Of a DNA stretch of 64,000 nt, positions 9,940 to 20,124 are shown in pieces (positions within the stretch are counted from its first letter, which is position 1; every line of letters begins with the position of its first letter). Under the pieces are notes generated by a model that searched no databases, had not been told where the DNA came from, and was given only the letters and a program-made list of their open reading frames with translations. The stretch spans positions 1,984,001-2,048,000 of the forward strand of contig CP019169.1 in the NCBI GenBank assembly GCA_001953215.1. The letters are read 5' to 3'. This DNA comes from Betaproteobacteria bacterium GR16-43. Its GTDB lineage: Bacteria > Pseudomonadota > Gammaproteobacteria > Burkholderiales > Usitatibacteraceae. A program made the position numbers and the translations under genes.

Positions 9940-11306
9940 GCCGCAAATACTTCGGCACGGATGGCATCCGTGGCCGTGCCGGCCTGGCGCCCATCACGCC
10001 CGACTTCATGATGCGGCTGGGCTACTGCGCCGGGAAGATCCTGTCGCGAGCCGACGTGGCGCCCCCGCACCGCGATCGCCCCGCCGTCCTGATCGGCAAG
10101 GACACGAGGCTCTCCGGCTACATGCTCGAGTCCGCGCTCGAGTCGGGCCTGTCGAGCGCGGGCGTGGACACGCTGCTGCTCGGTCCGATGCCCACGCCGG
10201 CCGTCGCGTTCCTCACCCGGGCGCTGCGCCTTTCGGCGGGGATCATGATCTCGGCTTCGCACAATCCGTTCGAGGACAACGGCATCAAGTTCTTCTCCGC
10301 CGACGGGATGAAGCTTCCCGACGCGGTGGAGCGCGACATCGAGTCCGCCCTCGATGAACCGATGACGCCGCCCGCGCCCTCCGCCTACGGCAAGGCCACG
10401 CGCGTGCACGATGCCGAGGGCCGTTACCTCGAATTCTGCAAGGGCACGTTTCCGAAGCAGCGCTCGCTGCGCGGCCTGAAGCTGGTCGTCGACTGCGCGC
10501 ATGGCGCCAGCTATCGCGTCGGTCCGCGCGCCTTCCAGGAACTGGGTGCGGAAGTGGTCACGATCGGAGACCGGCCCAACGGCGTGAACATCAACGACCG
10601 CTGCGGCGCCACGTCGCCGGGCACCGTCGCCGCCGCGGTGATCGAGCACAAGGCCGACTTCGGCATCGCGTTCGACGGCGATGGCGACCGGCTCGCGATG
10701 GCCGACCACGACGGGCGCCTCTTCGACGGCGACCAGCTCCTCTACGCGATCGTGAAGCACCGCCAGCGCGAAGGCACGCTGCGCGGCGGCGTGGTGGGTA
10801 CCCTCATGACCAACTTCGCCCTCGAGCGGCGGCTGGGCGAGCTCGGCGTGGGCTTCGTGCGCGCGAAGGTCGGGGACCGCTACGTGCTCGAGGCGTTGCT
10901 CGAGAAGGGCTGGGAATGCGGCGGCGAGAATTCGGGCCACCTGCTCTGCCTCGACAGCCACTCGACCGGCGACGCGATCATCTCCGCGTTGCAGGTGCTC
11001 GCCGCGCTGGTGGCGAGCGGCCAGACGCTGGGCGACCTCACGCGCGACCTCGTGCTGATGCCGCAGGTGCTGGTGAACGTGCAGCTCGGCGCCGCGTTCG
11101 ATTTCCAGTCGTCGCCCGGCGTGCGCGCCGCGGTCGATGCGGCGAAGGCGGAGCTCGGCGATCGCGGCCGCGTGCTCCTGCGCCCCTCGGGCACCGAGCC
11201 GGTCGTGCGCGTGATGGTCGAGGGCGAGGACCGCGAACGCGTGAAGCGTCTCGCCGAGGCGATCGCCGCGGCGATGCGTGCCTCGAGCACGCCGGCCGCC
11301 GCCTAG
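9936..11306 (+). CDS. glmM: Phosphoglucosamine mutase
   Basis: GlmM interconverts glucosamine-6-phosphate and glucosamine-1-phosphate on the way to UDP-GlcNAc for peptidoglycan and lipopolysaccharide. The 456-residue product begins [13 protein letters not shown]. It has the phosphoserine loop [16 protein letters not shown] (Ser about 108), the metal-binding DGDGDR, and the C-terminal phosphate-binding [16 protein letters not shown]. Its ATG overlaps the folP stop by four bases. Its TAG and the stop of the opposing aquaporin gene share the palindrome CTAG at 11303-11306, so the two genes meet end to end. Confidence 0.97.
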
Positions 11307-11980
11307 GTCGCGCGCGCGTCCGATCGCGGCAGCAGCCAGCGCATCGCGCCCATCGCGGCCAACGCACCCACCAGTTGGGCCAGCACGAACGCCGCGACGT
11401 CATCGGGCCGGATTCCTGCGAACGTGTTGCTCGCCGATCGCGCCAGCGTGACGGCGGGATTCGCGAACGACGTCGAGGCGGTGAACCAGTAGGCCGCGGT
11501 GATGTACGCGGCGACGGCATAGGGTGTCGCCGCGATTTTCTGCCGCGTGCAGCCGAGGATGACCACGAGCAGCCCGAACGTGGCCACGGCTTCGCTGAAC
11601 CACTGCGCGGGACCGGCTCGCACCTTCACGGAAGCGGAGAAGAGCGGATCGGCGAACATGAAATGGGCCACCGTGACGCCGACGAACGCAGCGACGATCT
11701 GCACGGCGACGTAGGGCGCGAGGTCGCGGCGCGGCAGTTCCCGGTCCAGCGTCGCGACGAGACTCACGACCGGGTTGAAGTGCGCGCCCGAGACCGGCCC
11801 CAGCACCAGGATCAGCACGGCGAGGCCGCACCCGGTCGCGAAGCTGTTGGCGAGCAGCGTGATCGCCGCATTCCCTCCAGCCAGCCGCTCGCCCATGATC
11901 CCCGAGCCGATGATCATCGCGAGAAGCAGTGTCGTTCCCAACGCCTCGGCCGCAAGCCGTCGGGGAAGGCTTGCCTTCAT
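11303..11980 (-). CDS. Aquaporin/glycerol-facilitator family channel of the ars operon (AqpS-like)
   Basis: A 225-residue polytopic membrane protein of the MIP family. The first pore motif reads GAHFNPVVS, with NPV in place of the usual NPA. The second is [10 protein letters not shown], with canonical NPA. Being the last gene of an arsR-arsC operon suggests it passes arsenite produced by ArsC out of the cell, as described for AqpS of Sinorhizobium; that role is inferred from context. The ATG at 11980 overlaps the arsC stop (ATGA). Longer upstream readings would run into arsC. No ArsB or Acr3 pump gene is present here. Confidence 0.85.
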
Positions 11981-12471
11981 GTCCGGCCGAATTCCTTCAG
12001 CCGCGCCTGGATCGAAAGGCGGTCGAGTTTTTCGACCGGCAGGCTGGCGAGCAACTCGATGCGCCGGCGCAGGACCGTCGCCGTTTCGCGAAAGGCGGCG
12101 CGCTTCTGCGCATCGGCGCCTTCGACGGCCGCGGGATCCGGCAATCCCCAATGGGCCGTCACGGGCTTGCCCGGCCAGATGGGGCACACCTCGCCCGCCG
12201 CGTTGTCGCAGACGGTGAGGATGAAGTCCATCGGCGGAGCACCCGATGCGGCGAACTCGTCCCAGTTCTTGCTGCGCAGCCCCTCGGTCGGGAATCCGAA
12301 ACCCGCGAGCGTTTCGAGGGCAAAGGGATTGACCCTGCCGGTGGGATGGCTGCCTGCCGAGTAGGCGCGGAAGCGCCCGCCACCGAGCTGGTTCGTGAGC
12401 ACTTCGGCCAGGATCGACCGGGCCGAATTGCCGGTGCAGAGGAAGAGCACGTTGTAGGTTCGTTGGGTCAT
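11977..12471 (-). CDS. arsC: Arsenate reductase, low-molecular-weight phosphatase (thioredoxin) type
   Basis: ArsC reduces arsenate to arsenite. The 164-residue protein has the phosphatase-like loop CTGNSARS starting at Cys12 (CX5R) and a later cysteine pair in LTVCDNAAGEVCP that would form the redox relay. These features belong to the thioredoxin-coupled, LMW-PTP-derived class rather than the glutaredoxin type. WPGKPVTAHWGLPDPA is also characteristic of this class. It overlaps the MFS gene before it and the aquaporin gene after it by four bases each, so the three are translationally coupled. Confidence 0.94.
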   Translation of the reverse strand: MTQRTYNVLFLCTGNSARSILAEVLTNQLGGGRFRAYSAGSHPTGRVNPFALETLAGFGFPTEGLRSKNWDEFAASGAPPMDFILTVCDNAAGEVCPIWPGKPVTAHWGLPDPAAVEGADAQKRAAFRETATVLRRRIELLASLPVEKLDRLSIQARLKEFGRT

Positions 12472-13631
12472 GGTCGTTTGCGGAGGGCCATCAGGAAACT
12501 GCCGAGCCCCGCGATGGAAACCGTGACCATCGCGGCCAATGCAGCGTTGCGAGTCAATCCCAGCGCCAGCAGGCCCGAGAAGGAGGCGGGCGCCACGGCC
12601 TTCGCATAGAGGCCCGCCCGCGAGATGTGCCCCAGCAGCGCGCCGAAGCCCTGGCGCCCGAAGAGTTCCGCCGGAGCCGTCCCCTTCACGATCGTGAGGA
12701 CGCCATTGCCCCATCCGTAGGCGGTGACGAATACGATCGCGGCGATGCCGAATCCCTCCACGCTGATCAGCGCGACCAGCGAGACCAGCATTAGGAGGAA
12801 CGCGACCACGCCGACCGTCACTGCGCGTACACGCCCGGAGATGCCCAGCTCGATGATGCGTCCGGCCACTTGCATCGGCCCGACCAGCATCGAGATCGTG
12901 ACGGCCTGCGCGGCCGTGAGGCCCGCGCTGGTGAGGAGGCTGATCAGATGCACCGCGACCACGCCGAACACGAAGGTCGCCGCCGCGAAGCTCCACGTGA
13001 GCCACGGCAGGCGCGGGTCGCCCAGCGCGGGAGAAGGCTCGGCGGTCTCGCCGTGCGCTTCGTGCGGCAGCGCCAGGTGCCTGGGGACGAACAGGCGATG
13101 GATCGGAAAGCAGACGAAGGCGTGGATGCCCGCGTAGATCGCGAACGTCATGCGCCAGCCCCACGCTTCGAGCAGCAGCAGCGAGAGCGGCCAGAACACC
13201 GTGCTCGCAAAGCCGCCGAACAAGGTGAGGGCGGTGACCGAGCGCCGGTAGCGTTCACCGGCGTGGCGGCTCAGCGTCGCGAACGCTGGATCGTAGAGGC
13301 AGAAGGCCATTGCGGCTCCGGCCACCAGCCAACCGGCGACCATGACCGCGGCGTTGGGCGCGGTCGCGAGCAACAACATCGCGACGATCGAGAGCACGGA
13401 ACCGAGCGAGAGCACGAAACGCCCGCCGCGCTGGTCGATGAGGCGCCCGGCGAGCGTGGCGAACGTGCCGGACACCAGCAGAGCACCCGTGAAGACCGAG
13501 AACAGGAAGAGCTCGCTCACGCCCAGCTCCGCGCGCATCGGCGCGCCGAGCACGCCGATCGCGTAGAACAGGCTGCCCCACGAAATGATCTGGGCGATTC
13601 CCAGCGCGGAGACGAGTGGAGCGAGTTTCAC
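12468..13631 (-). CDS. Major facilitator superfamily transporter of the ars operon
   Basis: A 387-residue membrane protein with about twelve hydrophobic segments and MFS-type loops: GRLIDQRGGRFVL between helices 2 and 3, YDPAFATLSRHAG after helix 4, and a central hydrophilic linker with EAHGETAEPSPALGD. It lies between the flavin monooxygenase and arsC, 12 bases after the former and overlapping the latter by four. The substrate is not evident. Because arsenite has an exit through the aquaporin, this protein may export another species, such as the product of the monooxygenase. That is inference from gene order only. Confidence 0.85.
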   Translation of the reverse strand: MKLAPLVSALGIAQIISWGSLFYAIGVLGAPMRAELGVSELFLFSVFTGALLVSGTFATLAGRLIDQRGGRFVLSLGSVLSIVAMLLLATAPNAAVMVAGWLVAGAAMAFCLYDPAFATLSRHAGERYRRSVTALTLFGGFASTVFWPLSLLLLEAWGWRMTFAIYAGIHAFVCFPIHRLFVPRHLALPHEAHGETAEPSPALGDPRLPWLTWSFAAATFVFGVVAVHLISLLTSAGLTAAQAVTISMLVGPMQVAGRIIELGISGRVRAVTVGVVAFLLMLVSLVALISVEGFGIAAIVFVTAYGWGNGVLTIVKGTAPAELFGRQGFGALLGHISRAGLYAKAVAPASFSGLLALGLTRNAALAAMVTVSIAGLGSFLMALRKRP

Positions 13632-13643
13632 GGGCGCGCGGGA

Positions 13644-15128
13644 TCAGGCCGATTCGGATTCGCGCTTGCGCGTGCCGCAGCCTCCGCCGCCTATCGTTGC
13701 GCACCCGGCCTTGCCCGCGTCCTTGGCGACTTCGTCGACGGCGCAGCAGCTGTCCTCGCGCGCCTTGGGCGGGCCTCCGCAGCAGGAGGACGACGCGAGC
13801 ACGGGCAATTCGACCTCGGCGGCTGCCGGCTCGCCGCTCGAGCAGCATCCGGAAGAGGCTTCGTCGAATTGCGTCGAGCACACGCCGGTCTGCGGCAACT
13901 CGAGCTGCACGAGATCGGCCGCCGCGAAATCCCCCGCGAGTGCCGCGGCGACCGAGCGGACCTGTTCGTATCCCGTGGCGAGCAGGAAGTTGGGCGCGCG
14001 GCCGTAACTCTTCGAGCCCACCGCGTAGTAGCGAACTTCCGGATGCGCCAGTTCCCGGTGCCCATGCGGCCGCACCGTGCCACAACTGTGGACGTTGGGA
14101 TCGATGAGGGGGGCGAGCGCCTCCGTGCTTTCCAGCCACGCGTCGAGCTTCAATCGCAGTTCCGAGGCGATCGAGAGATCGGGCCTTCCGCCGGTGGCGA
14201 CGATGATCTCGTCGATGCCTTCGATCGTGCGCGTCGAACCGTCGGGGCCGAGGCCTTCGACGGTGATCGCACCGTTGGACGGGCGAAGGGCCGAAGTGCG
14301 GAAGTCGGCGTGCACTTCGAGCTGCCCGCTCTCCGACAAGCGCTTCAACCGCTGGCCGAGCGCGCCGCGGGCGGACAGGCCATCATTCTCCCCGCCGCCG
14401 AAGATGCGCGCGAAGTTGTGGCCGCGAATGGTCCACGCGATGCGGGTCCCCTTTTCTTCCTCGGCGAGTCTTGCGAGCGCCAGCAATCCGCCCGCCGCCG
14501 AGTGGCCCGCACCGGCGACCAACACGCGCTTGCCGGCGTATCGCTTGCGCATCGCGCCCAGGACGTCGGGCATGCCATAGGCGATGTGCGCGGCCGATTC
14601 GCGTTCGCCGATGGCTGGAAGGCCGTTCGCGCCGAGCGGGTTGGGGCGCGCCCACGTCCCGGTGGCGTCGATCACCGCCCAGGCGCGGAATTCTCGCGGG
14701 CCCCCGGGCGTCTCCGCGCGGATCACGAAGGGCGCGTCGTCGCGACCCTGGGTCTTCACCTTGTCGAAGCCGTCGCGCGAAAGGCTCTCGACGCGGTGCC
14801 GCAAGAGGATCGCGCCCGACAGGGACGGATGTTCCGCGAGCGGCGCGAGGTAGTGGTCGATGACCTCGCCTGCGGTGGGCAGGTCGTCCAACGCCGGAGC
14901 ACGCCACGGCGTCGTGGAGAGCAGGCGCAGTGCCGCAGCGTCCATGTTGTAGCGCCACGGCGAGAAGAGCTTCACGTGCCGCACGTCCTGCAAGCTTCCC
15001 GCGATGGTTGCACCGGCCTCGAACACGAGGGGCTGCAGGCCGCGTTCAAGCAGGTGCGCGGCGGCGGCGAGGCCCACGGGCCCGGCGCCGATCACGGCCA
15101 CGACGCGCTTCGACGATTCGCTCTTCAT
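13644..15128 (-). CDS. FAD/NAD(P)-dependent monooxygenase-like protein with cysteine-rich C-terminal tail (ArsO-like)
   Basis: This 494-residue flavoprotein has an N-terminal FAD loop VIGAGPVGLAAA (about residues 13-24), a second Rossmann motif VAGAGHSAAGG in the middle for NAD(P)H, and ATGGRPDLS later, as in flavin-containing monooxygenases. Similar proteins occur in ars islands as ArsO-like oxidoreductases. From about residue 416 the fold ends and a low-complexity tail begins with nine cysteines, including three CC pairs (428-429, 449-450, 461-462) and single cysteines at 417, 476 and 484. The tail could bind trivalent arsenic, another thiophilic metal or a persulfide; this is inference. 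Its ATG overlaps the arsR stop (ATGA). Confidence 0.8.
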   Translation of the reverse strand: MKSESSKRVVAVIGAGPVGLAAAAHLLERGLQPLVFEAGATIAGSLQDVRHVKLFSPWRYNMDAAALRLLSTTPWRAPALDDLPTAGEVIDHYLAPLAEHPSLSGAILLRHRVESLSRDGFDKVKTQGRDDAPFVIRAETPGGPREFRAWAVIDATGTWARPNPLGANGLPAIGERESAAHIAYGMPDVLGAMRKRYAGKRVLVAGAGHSAAGGLLALARLAEEEKGTRIAWTIRGHNFARIFGGGENDGLSARGALGQRLKRLSESGQLEVHADFRTSALRPSNGAITVEGLGPDGSTRTIEGIDEIIVATGGRPDLSIASELRLKLDAWLESTEALAPLIDPNVHSCGTVRPHGHRELAHPEVRYYAVGSKSYGRAPNFLLATGYEQVRSVAAALAGDFAAADLVQLELPQTGVCSTQFDEASSGCCSSGEPAAAEVELPVLASSSCCGGPPKAREDSCCAVDEVAKDAGKAGCATIGGGGCGTRKRESESA

Positions 15129-15493
15129 GCGGCACTCCTTTTGGGGGGGTCGGCGGGCGGGCAACAGGCGGCCACGGCCTGCCCGATGCGCGCCACCTGC
15201 GGCGCGGGCATGCCCTGGCAGCATTTCTCGGTGAGGAAGGCGATCAGCTCGGACATCTCCGCGTAGTTGGCGGCGTAGTAAATGAACCGGCCGTCCTGCC
15301 GCGCCTTCACGAGCCCGGCGGCGGCCAGGCCCTTCAGGTGGAAGGAGAGGGTGGACGCGGGCGCGCCGACGGCTTCGGCGATCACCCCGGCGGCGACGCC
15401 CTCGGGCCCCGCCTGGACCAGCGCCCTGAAGATGGAAAGCCGGGTTTCCTGGGCCAGCGCCTCGAGAACCCGCACCGCATTTGTCAGTTTCAT
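15125..15493 (-). CDS. arsR: ArsR/SmtB-family transcriptional repressor
   Basis: A 122-residue winged-helix protein beginning MKLTNAVRVLEALAQETRL, with recognition-helix region PASTLSFHLKGLAAAGLV and wing DGRFIYYAA. It lacks the CVC metal site in the recognition helix of classical ArsR. Instead it has two vicinal cysteine pairs near the C-terminus (91-92 and 110-111), resembling the atypical C-terminal sensors described for Acidithiobacillus-type ArsR. It heads the five-gene leftward operon and probably represses it until arsenite binds. The ATG at 15493 was chosen because longer readings run through the promoter region toward tpiA. Confidence 0.92.
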   Translation of the reverse strand: MKLTNAVRVLEALAQETRLSIFRALVQAGPEGVAAGVIAEAVGAPASTLSFHLKGLAAAGLVKARQDGRFIYYAANYAEMSELIAFLTEKCCQGMPAPQVARIGQAVAACCPPADPPKRSAA

Positions 15494-15502
15494 ATTTCCA
15501 GA

Positions 15503-15528
15503 ATTATAGAAACGACGGCGAAAGTCAA
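15503..15528 (-). promoter_or_regulatory. Candidate promoter/operator of the ars operon
   Basis: On the minus strand TTGACT (15523-15528) and TATAAT (15503-15508) precede arsR, but the 14-base spacer is short. The TATAAT ends nine bases before the ATG. TTTC and GAAA flank it as a small inverted repeat (15496-15513), a plausible ArsR operator. Only the AT-rich -10 is convincing. Confidence 0.4.
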
Positions 15529-15548
15529 GCGCGAGGCGGGCGGCGTGT

Positions 15549-15578
15549 TTGACCCCCCATGCTGCGACGCGGTAAAAT
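15549..15578 (+). promoter_or_regulatory. Probable sigma-70 promoter of tpiA
   Basis: TTGACC at 15549-15554 and TAAAAT at 15573-15578 are separated by 18 bases and lie 46 bases upstream of the tpiA ATG, on the strand opposite to the ars promoter. Confidence 0.6.
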
Positions 15579-15623
15579 CGTCGGGTTTTCCGAGAGTCAG
15601 CTACGGCAAGAAGACCGGACGCC

Positions 15624-16385
15624 ATGCGCCCCAAGTACGTTGTCGGCAACTGGAAGCAAAACGGCAGTCTCGCCGGCAACCAGGCCCTCCTGAAGGCGGT
15701 GTTAGCGGGCGTCGCGGCGGCCCCGGGGCGGCATTGCGCGGTTTGCGTGCCGTTTCCGTACCTGGACCAGGCCGAAAGCCTGCTGAAGGGCTCGGCCATC
15801 GCCTGGGGTTGCCAGGACGTGAGCCGGTTCGACAAGGGCGCCTATACCGGCGACGTGTCGGGCGGCATGGTGGCGGAGTTCGGCGCTCGCTACGCGATCG
15901 TCGGGCACTCGGAACGCCGGACTGTGTTCGGCGACACGGATGCGATCGTCGTGGAGAAGTTCGCCGCGGCGAAGCGATCGGGCCTCACGCCGATCTTCTG
16001 CGTCGGGGAAACGCTCGCGGAGCGCGAGTCCGGCGTGATGGAAAAGGTGCTCGCGGCGCAGGTGGACAGCCTGCTCGAGAAGCACGGCGCGGCGAGCCTC
16101 GAAGGGGCCGTGCTCGCGTATGAGCCGGTCTGGGCGATCGGAACGGGCCGCACGGCGACGGCGGCCCAGGCGAACGAAGCGCAGGCATTCATCCGCCAGC
16201 GCATCGCCGCGAAGGATGCAGGTGTCGCGAAGGGCCTGGCGATCCTCTACGGAGGAAGCGTCAAGGGGTCGAACGCGGCGGAGTTGTTCGCGATGCCGGA
16301 TGTCGATGGCGGCTTGATCGGCGGGGCGTCGCTGGTAGCGGAAGATTTCGTGGCGATCTGGCGGGCTGCCGGCGCCGCAAGGTGA
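15624..16385 (+). CDS. tpiA: Triose-phosphate isomerase
   Basis: TpiA interconverts dihydroxyacetone phosphate and glyceraldehyde-3-phosphate in glycolysis and gluconeogenesis. The 253-residue protein starts MRPKYVVGNWKQNGS with the substrate-binding Asn and Lys. It contains IVGHSERR with the catalytic His (about 95) and YEPVWAIGTG with the catalytic Glu (about 167). The phosphate-binding loop follows as YGGSVKGSN and GGLIGGASL. Sixteen bases separate it from secG. The order tpiA-secG-tRNA-Leu-nuoA is a familiar betaproteobacterial arrangement. Confidence 0.97.
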   Translation: MRPKYVVGNWKQNGSLAGNQALLKAVLAGVAAAPGRHCAVCVPFPYLDQAESLLKGSAIAWGCQDVSRFDKGAYTGDVSGGMVAEFGARYAIVGHSERRTVFGDTDAIVVEKFAAAKRSGLTPIFCVGETLAERESGVMEKVLAAQVDSLLEKHGAASLEGAVLAYEPVWAIGTGRTATAAQANEAQAFIRQRIAAKDAGVAKGLAILYGGSVKGSNAAELFAMPDVDGGLIGGASLVAEDFVAIWRAAGAAR

Positions 16386-16821: not shown

Positions 16822-16906
16822 GCCGTCGTGGTGGAATTGGTAGACACGCTGTCTTGAGGGGGCAGTGCCGAAAGGCGTAAGAGTTCGAGTCTCTTCGACG
16901 GCACCA
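16822..16906 (+). tRNA. tRNA-Leu, anticodon GAG
   Basis: An 85-nt cloverleaf with acceptor arms GCCGTCG (16822-16828) and CGACGGC (16896-16902), discriminator A and an encoded CCA end (16904-16906). The anticodon loop TTGAGGG gives anticodon GAG. The T loop reads GTTCGAGTC, and a long variable arm (TGCCGAAAGGCGT) marks it as a class II leucine tRNA. It lies between secG and nuoA. Confidence 0.95.
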
Positions 16907-18388: not shown

Positions 18389-19642
18389 ATGGCCGAAATC
18401 CGCAACTACACGATGAACTTCGGGCCGCAGCATCCGGCGGCCCATGGCGTGCTGCGCCTGGTGCTGGAGCTCGACGGCGAAGTGATCCAGCGAGCCGACC
18501 CGCACATCGGCCTGCTGCACCGCGCCACCGAGAAGCTCGCCGAGACGCGCACCTACATCCAGACGGTCCCGTACATGGACCGCCTCGACTACGTCTCGAT
18601 GATGGCCAACGAGCACGCGTACGTGATGGCCATCGAGAAGCTGCTCGGCGTGGACGTGCCCAAACGCGCGCAGTACATCCGCGTGATGTTCGACGAGATC
18701 ACGCGGATCCTGAACCATTTGCTCTGGCTGGGCGCGCACGCGCTGGACGTGGGCGCGATGACCGTCTTCCTCTACGCCTTCCGCGAGCGCGAAGACCTCA
18801 TGGATTGCTACGAGGCGGTGTCGGGCGCGCGCATGCACGCTGCGTACTACCGCCCGGGCGGGGTCTACCGCGACCTTCCCGAGAAGATGCCGCAGTACAA
18901 GCCCTCGCAGGTGAAGAACGAGGCCGAGATCAAGCGCCTGAACGAGAATCGCCAGGGTTCGCTGCTCGACTTCATCGAGGATTTCACCCGGCGTTTCCCG
19001 GGCTACGTCGACGAGTACGAGACGCTCCTCACCGAGAACCGCATCTGGAAGCAGCGCACCGTGGGCATCGGCGTGGTGACGCCGGAGCGCGCGCAGGCGC
19101 TGGGCTTCACCGGCCCGATGCTGCGGGGCTCGGGCATCGCCTGGGACCTGCGCAAGAAGCAGCCGTACGAGGTCTACGACAAGCTCGACTTCGACATTCC
19201 GGTCGGCACGAACGGCGATTGCTACGACCGCTACCTCGTGCGCATGCAGGAGTTCCGCGAATCCAACCGGATCATCCAGCAGTGCGTCGCGTGGCTGCGC
19301 AAGAATCCCGGCCCGGTCATCACCTCGAACCACAAGGTGGCCCCGCCGTCGCGCGAGGAGATGAAGGCGTCGATGGAAGAGCTGATCCACCATTTCAAGC
19401 TCTTCTCCGAAGGCTTCCACGTGCCCCCGGGCGAGGTGTACGCCGCGGTCGAGCACCCGAAGGGCGAGTTCGGCATCTTCCTGTGCTCCGACGGGGCGAA
19501 CAAGCCGTGGCGCATGAAGATCCGCGCGCCGGGCTTCGCGCACCTGTCGGCGATGGACGAGATGACCAAGGGCCACATGATCGCGGACGTGGTCGCCATC
19601 ATCGGCACCATGGACATCGTCTTCGGCGAGGTCGACCGGTGA
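18389..19642 (+). CDS. nuoD: NADH-quinone oxidoreductase subunit D
   Basis: NuoD is the 49-kDa-type subunit lining the quinone pocket. The 417-residue protein begins [20 protein letters not shown], the conserved N-terminal loop with the quinone-site histidine. It contains [32 protein letters not shown] and the C-terminal FGEVDR typical of the family. Its stop overlaps the GTG start of a cupin gene by four bases, and nuoE comes only after that, which is an unusual interruption. Confidence 0.97.
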
Positions 19643-20124
19643 GCGTCATTGCCAAGCGTGTCGTCAACATCGACGAACTCAAGCTCGAGCCGTTCGAGCA
19701 GGGTGACCAGTACCGGTCCGAGGGCGCGCGCATCGGCCCGATGCTCGGTGCCAAGGACCTCGGGTATTCGTACGACGTGGTGCCCCCGGGCAAGCGGTCG
19801 TGCCCGTTCCACAGCCACCACGGCGAAGAGGAGATGTTCTTCATCGTGAAGGGCACCGGCACGCTGCGCTACGGCCAGGAGACGCGCAAGGTGCGCGCCG
19901 GCGACTTCATCTGCTGCCCCACGGGCGGGCCGGATACCGCGCACCAGATCGTCAACGATTCCGATGCGCCCCTCGCCTACATTTCCGTGTCGACCATGCT
20001 GCCCGCGGAGGTCTGCGAGTACCCGGATTCGGGCAAGGTCGGCGCGTTCGGCGGCGCCGGCACGACGCGCCTGCGCCACATGACGGAAGTCTCCAGCGCC
20101 GTGGATTACTGGAAAGGCGAATGA
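19639..20124 (+). CDS. Cupin-domain protein inside the nuo operon
   Basis: A 161-residue single-domain cupin. Motif 1 is [18 protein letters not shown], with two metal-ligand histidines and a glutamate; motif 2 is [19 protein letters not shown], with the third histidine. Such proteins usually bind a divalent metal, but the substrate cannot be predicted. It starts at GTG 19639 overlapping nuoD (GTGA), and its stop overlaps the nuoE ATG (ATGA), so it is translated as part of the complex I message. A cupin is not a known complex I subunit; a role in assembly or redox adaptation is only a guess. Confidence 0.85.

Follow-up and report, generated by a model that had tools for sequence, protein, structure and literature searches.

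The operon and its genes

The window analysed here, a stretch of 64,000 nucleotides (nt) covering positions 1,984,001 to 2,048,000 of contig CP019169.1, is from Betaproteobacteria bacterium GR16-43, whose one-contig genome comprises 4,806,848 bases and is rated 100% complete. Between positions 11303 and 15493, the window features an arsenic resistance (ars) operon of five genes, which code for an ArsR repressor, a flavoenzyme, a transporter of the major facilitator superfamily (MFS), a thioredoxin-type arsenate reductase (ArsC) and a channel of the major intrinsic protein (MIP) or aquaporin family. All five genes are located on the minus strand, at exactly the coordinates given in an earlier note on this DNA. 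The locus is a real arsenic-resistance operon that is assembled from known, interchangeable parts. Comparison with related loci shows that these parts form two independently exchangeable modules under one ArsR, the first consisting of ArsC and an exit for its product, the second of the flavoenzyme with or without the MFS transporter.

The gene arsR (15125–15493) codes for an ArsR/SmtB repressor of 122 amino acids (NF033788, 69.6 bits, cut-off 55) with cysteine pairs at sequence positions 91–92 and 110–111. It is followed by the gene of the flavoenzyme (13644–15128, 494 amino acids), an ArsV-like candidate with a Pyr_redox_3-type flavoprotein match and a predicted dependence on flavin adenine dinucleotide (FAD) and nicotinamide adenine dinucleotide (phosphate) (NAD(P)). 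The MFS gene (12468–13631, 387 amino acids) has a GTG start and is related to ArsK according to both the NF033733 model and tree reconstruction. The arsC gene (11977–12471, 164 amino acids) was assigned from PF01451, TIGR02691 and the positions of its cysteines. TIGR02691 is the best family for ArsC, yet its score of 72.8 bits is below the cut-off of 174.3. Cysteines 12, 88 and 96, including the one of the P-loop, are present and are what we take, from the pI258 enzyme, to be the catalytic triad. The last gene (11303–11980) encodes an ars-linked (AqpS-like) MIP of 225 amino acids (PF00230, 78.9 bits, cut-off 25), in which the second motif is NPA and the first is NPV instead of another NPA. NPV as first motif was also observed in 9 of 25 ars-linked MIP relatives. 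Thus, the broad names proposed earlier for ArsR, the MFS transporter, ArsC and the aquaporin are backed by Pfam and NCBIfam matches. The earlier note also described four of the five genes as coupled by ATGA overlaps. Such overlaps were found at three of the four junctions (arsR/flavoenzyme, MFS/arsC and arsC/MIP), while the genes of the flavoenzyme and the MFS transporter are separated by a gap of 12 nt.

Locus counts given in the following refer to the best 80 of at least 581 confirmed flavoenzyme relatives, which were obtained from at least 591 pattern matches. The exact order flavoenzyme-MFS-arsC-MIP was found in none of these 80 loci, and in two of them all four genes are located on one strand. 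The order MFS-arsC-MIP was found again in G009, a genome of the host family.

ArsC and its exit route

The claim that the operon is devoid of ArsB and Acr3 holds for whole-genome searches with PF02040, PF01758 and an Acr3 query. In the complete 4.8-Mb genome, neither ArsB (PF02040) nor ArsP (PF03773) gave a match, and an Acr3 query taken from a congener yielded nothing at an E value of 1e-30. Of the two matches to PF01758, NCBIfam identifies one as a relative of bile-acid symporters and the other as a relative of auxin carriers. A hidden Acr3, ArsB or ArsP elsewhere in the genome was thus not found by these profile and protein searches. The sole other MIP found in the genome is AqpZ. Nevertheless, the operon does contain a candidate for a pump, because the ArsK-type MFS transporter itself belongs to a known family of arsenical exporters.

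Among the 80 loci, arsR is present in 65, an MFS gene in 48 (in 38 of them within 400 nt downstream of the flavoenzyme gene) and a thioredoxin-type arsC in 47. The exit genes are distributed over MIP (25 loci), Acr3 (23) and ArsB (7). A MIP together with Acr3 or ArsB was observed in 0 of 80 loci, compared to 9.4 expected (P = 3e-7 if the loci are independent). The 28 genomes of the host family show the same pattern: 11 carry the MIP, 11 carry Acr3 and none carries both. At the level of the host order, a count covering MIP and Acr3, with ArsB left aside, yielded 65 MIP and 180 Acr3 genomes among 399, and only two genomes with both versus about 29 expected, which makes the mutual exclusion of aquaporin and Acr3 a large-scale case. 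These numbers back the earlier proposal of the channel as exit route, with the MIP substituting for the missing pump.

The operon MIP is linked to ArsC without ArsB or Acr3, as is characteristic of the AqpS type. According to PMC6205960, AqpS together with ArsC in Sinorhizobium meliloti is a precedent for this first module. Judged by that description rather than by sequence, both systems combine a MIP channel with ArsC in an operon lacking ArsB and Acr3, but the operon studied here additionally features the flavoenzyme and the MFS transporter, and its MIP has NPV as first motif. A previous survey lists 18 MIPs encoded by themselves in ars operons and places all of its 35 MFS transporters beside ArsB or Acr3 (PMC4435449). 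A MIP combined with an MFS transporter in the absence of ArsB and Acr3, seen here in 16 of the 80 loci, therefore falls outside the figures of that survey.

The flavoenzyme, its transporter and their candidate substrates

The flavoenzyme was previously described as ArsO-like. Its score on the ArsO model NF040505 is 36.4 bits, far below the cut-off of 425. The same model yields 554 bits for ArsO of Streptomyces FR-008 (arsRBOCT) and 51.9 bits for the window-type enzyme of the same plasmid, and an identity with ArsO was hence rejected. Since the Streptomyces plasmid, pSSFR1, holds a true ArsO and a window-type flavoenzyme next to each other, the two are separate families. What they share is their occurrence as flavoproteins of ars clusters and a weak similarity over part of their length only. 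The analysis thereby sets a widespread arsenic-linked flavoenzyme family apart from ArsO, with which it might be confused. Two plasmids of Streptomyces and Rhodococcus (L162, 3793–7624; L164, 4986–8641) carry a flavoenzyme-MFS pair and an extra ArsO-like flavoprotein, which scores 264 and 243 bits, respectively, under the ArsO cut-off.

The flavoenzyme has a fold of the NADPH/FAD type with two dinucleotide-binding domains. A GxGxxG motif near the N-terminus is present in 80/80 relatives and GxGHSA in 78/80. The alignment contains invariant columns; the structure alignment was built with 57 of the 80 relatives. The presence of FAD and NAD(P) binding motifs in an ars-encoded flavoprotein is in line with ArsV. 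A model for ArsV was absent among the 22 NCBIfam families matched. A sequence search of the PDB gave four weak, N-terminal matches. Besides cysteine 349 in the core and cysteine 417, the enzyme has a cysteine-rich C-terminal tail (positions 428, 429, 449, 450, 461, 462, 476 and 484). When proteins were cut at the stop codon, a CC pair within the final 80 residues was found in 79 of 80 relatives. It is probably these C-terminal cysteine pairs that bind the trivalent arsenical. A 34-residue tail query against plasmids retrieved 19 records, 10 of which lack an annotation at the matched position. The remaining nine are all annotated as FAD-dependent or NAD(P)-binding proteins, and the tail peptide was thus rejected as a mobile domain.

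The best family for the operon MFS transporter is the arsenite efflux MFS ArsK (NF033733), with a score of 233.1 bits against 31.8 bits for the next family. In the whole-genome scan with this model, it was the sole strong match (232.5 bits), followed by two proteins with 40.7 and 23.2 bits. All of the 54 MFS transporters scanned, taken from 44 of the 48 loci with MFS and 10 others including that of the window, match the ArsK model. An MFS protein on an Ensifer plasmid, which is the partner of a flavoenzyme of the same type, passes the ArsK cut-off of 400 with 513 bits; the operon MFS shares 31% identity with it. On the basis of these matches, the transporter is predicted to be of the ArsK type. 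In the family genome G024, an open ArsK-type MFS frame (L067, 1054–2214), 73% identical to the operon MFS, adjoins tpiA. The tpiA-side interval of this genome gave no match for arsR or the flavoenzyme, and an arsR-arsI-arsC-MIP operon is located elsewhere in the genome (L188).

Sister operons of the host family illustrate how both modules change. The order is arsR-flavoenzyme-MFS-acr3-arsC in G023 and arsR-flavoenzyme-arsC-acr3 in G007. In G009, an operon adjoining glmM (L193, 3322–6659) has the order arsR-arsI-MFS-arsC-MIP, with ArsI in the position of the flavoenzyme; the assignment of this ArsI is supported by 141.9 bits on NF041414 (cut-off 116). In G008, arsR-arsI-arsC-acr3 adjoins tpiA. 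Among 22 host-family operons with arsR in view, the slot is occupied by ArsI in 11 and by the flavoenzyme in four, while seven have neither and none has both. ArsI itself was not matched inside the 64-kb window. Apart from the shared slot after arsR, the two proteins differ: ArsI is an unrelated member of the glyoxalase superfamily with other chemistry. It is described as a C-As lyase for methylarsenite in PMC6205960 and PMC6514093. Because ArsI takes the same slot and the adjoining exporter is of a methylarsenite-linked family, the same substrate class is most likely for the flavoenzyme.

Presence of the MFS gene is independent of the type of exit. It was found in 16 of 25 loci with a MIP, in 16 of 30 loci with a pump and in 16 of the 25 remaining loci, which have neither. 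The possibility that the transporter compensates for a missing pump or offsets a leaky channel was rejected, as the values for MIP and pump loci do not differ (Fisher p 0.58). Together with the occupation of the slot by ArsI in sister operons, this supports the earlier suggestion that the flavoenzyme and the MFS transporter handle a second arsenical.

The closest known pair is ArsV and ArsW from Paracoccus sp. SY, as described in citing papers (PMC10080717, PMC9144182, PMC11719878). According to the first of these, the substrate oxidised by ArsV is methylarsenite and the compound extruded by ArsW is methylarsenate (PMC10080717). The likeness, judged from descriptions of ArsV and ArsW rather than from their sequences, is that a flavin enzyme is combined with an exporter among ars genes. 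A window-type trio of arsR, flavoenzyme and MFS genes is carried by a plasmid of Neotabrizicola; this genus belongs to the Paracoccaceae, the family that includes Paracoccus, the source genus of ArsV. On this plasmid (L165, 4655–9793), the trio is located end to end with arsJ and its GAPDH, hence different arsenic strategies based on an enzyme and an MFS transporter can coexist.

The operon is probably best explained by a model in which an ArsV/ArsW-like pair, oxidising and exporting a trivalent organoarsenical, has been added to an AqpS/ArsC pair. In the first module, ArsC would turn arsenate into arsenite, and uncharged As(OH)3 would exit down its gradient via the AqpS-like MIP as a stand-in for Acr3 or ArsB. 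In the second, the flavoenzyme may use NAD(P)H, FAD and O2 to oxidise trivalent organoarsenicals, above all methylarsenite and perhaps antimonite. The product or the substrate would then be exported by the ArsK-type MFS transporter, as reported for ArsV and ArsW. For this second module, we infer the substrate, the redox direction, the role in export and the function of the tail. We tentatively extend the model to a distinct arsenic-specific flavoenzyme family, for which it is possible, though less likely than not, that the cysteine tail captures trivalent organoarsenicals, the flavin oxidises them and the product is passed to a cognate ArsK-type MFS. In evolution, such an "oxidise and export" module and ArsI, the "demethylate" enzyme, could replace each other slot for slot, regardless of the exchange between Acr3 and an aquaporin as the inorganic exit. 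The cysteine-tailed flavoenzyme and its MFS transporter are clear, testable candidates for methylarsenite resistance.

Alternatively, the MFS transporter could be an ArsK-like pump for inorganic arsenite that replaces Acr3, with the flavoenzyme as an accessory and the MIP as a helper or uptake route. The consistent match to the ArsK model fits this explanation, as does the lone ArsK-type MFS retained beside tpiA in the congener G024, for which Acr3 gave no match. We regard it as unlikely, however, because the transporter is not enriched in loci without Acr3 or ArsB and the congener G023 carries it together with Acr3. The flavoenzyme might instead be a reductase, which either regenerates a thiol/disulfide carrier used by ArsC or converts pentavalent organoarsenicals to the trivalent form for export by the MFS transporter. 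Thioredoxin reductase has a redox-active CxxC and YpdA a cysteine in GxGPCG. Neither of them was found in any of the 80 flavoenzyme relatives (0/80 for either), and no more than 8 of 80 loci have arsC as an immediate neighbour in the same orientation, compared to the 38 with MFS directly downstream, which renders a reductase quite improbable. An action of both proteins on arsenic-thiol or thioarsenical species, as suggested in the earlier note, is very improbable: the conserved cysteine pairs of the tail could hold thiol-bound arsenic, but nothing was found that positively points to a substrate of this kind, and ArsI in the same slot favours methylarsenite over thio-species.

Several observations weigh against the favoured model of an oxidising flavoenzyme with a cognate exporter added to an exchangeable exit. 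The nearest fold to the flavoenzyme is YpdA, a reductase. Classical flavin-containing monooxygenases carry the signature FxGxxxHxxxW/Y/F, which is present in 0/80 relatives and leaves a monooxygenase chemistry without motif support. The operon MFS is below the ArsK cut-off. Nine of 13 actinobacterial loci are without a mapped MFS and the flavoenzyme gene there mostly follows arsC or trxB, an arrangement that also fits a role as ArsC helper. Small numbers (4 versus 11 of 22) underlie the finding that flavoenzyme and ArsI exclude each other from the slot in the host family, and one flavoenzyme locus among the 80, L089, does contain matches to arsI, of which one belongs to a separate arsR-arsI-arsC-MIP run. 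As regards the exit, the exclusion is weaker at the genus level, where Acr3 was seen in one or more sampled species of 11 of the 34 MIP genera, an overlap read by eye, compared to 20 expected. The genomes and loci counted are related and thus not independent, and not all genomes behind the host-family counts are complete, with a completeness of at least 90% for 13 of the 28. Being the best 80, the loci are a biased sample, and some of them end at contig ends, so that absences there are uncertain.

Genomic position and age

The end of glmM is convergent with the end of the MIP gene and overlaps it by 4 nt. On the other side, tpiA and arsR are divergent and separated by an intergenic region (15494–15623) with a sigma-70-like site at 15549–15578 on the plus strand, facing tpiA. 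This was the one promoter-like site found in 11100–15800, compared to a mean of 0.2 in shuffled sequences.

The glmM-tpiA stretch was previously regarded as otherwise conserved. Both genes share a contig in 12 of the 28 family genomes, and there the interval between them proved to be variable, ranging from approximately 0.12 kb (G027, G026) to approximately 31.6 kb (G010). Phosphate-transport genes (pst) are part of it in G023, G008 and G009, and pst-like matches were obtained in G002 and G021.

A recent acquisition at this position, as the same note had suggested, is not in line with the comparison. Seven of the 28 family genomes (G000, G023, G005, G008, G001, G002 and G004) carry ars genes directly beside tpiA. 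In the flavoenzyme tree, the enzyme of the window clusters with those of G023 and G007 (Shimodaira–Hasegawa-like approximate likelihood ratio test 94, with the partial gene of G005 left out), and in the MFS tree its transporter clusters with those of G023, G024 and G009 (support 100/99). The third-position G + C content of the five genes (0.83–0.89) brackets that of tpiA (0.862). Relative to four other neighbours (0.92–0.95) it is slightly low, which is not decisive. No tRNA gene was found at the cluster edges, and the repeats listed, which cover 20 of 34 families of direct repeats and 25 of 29 inverted pairs, are short and imperfect. A recent insertion was rejected on these grounds, and we interpret the operon as long established, with parts that change, rather than as a fresh insert.

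The sole tRNA gene of the window, tRNA-Leu (gag), is located at 16822–16906 on the plus strand, with secG on one side and the nuo genes on the other. Within the gene run for NADH dehydrogenase, a short cupin-like reading frame, named by eye and without a family search, lies at approximately 19640–20124 on the plus strand between nuoD and nuoE.

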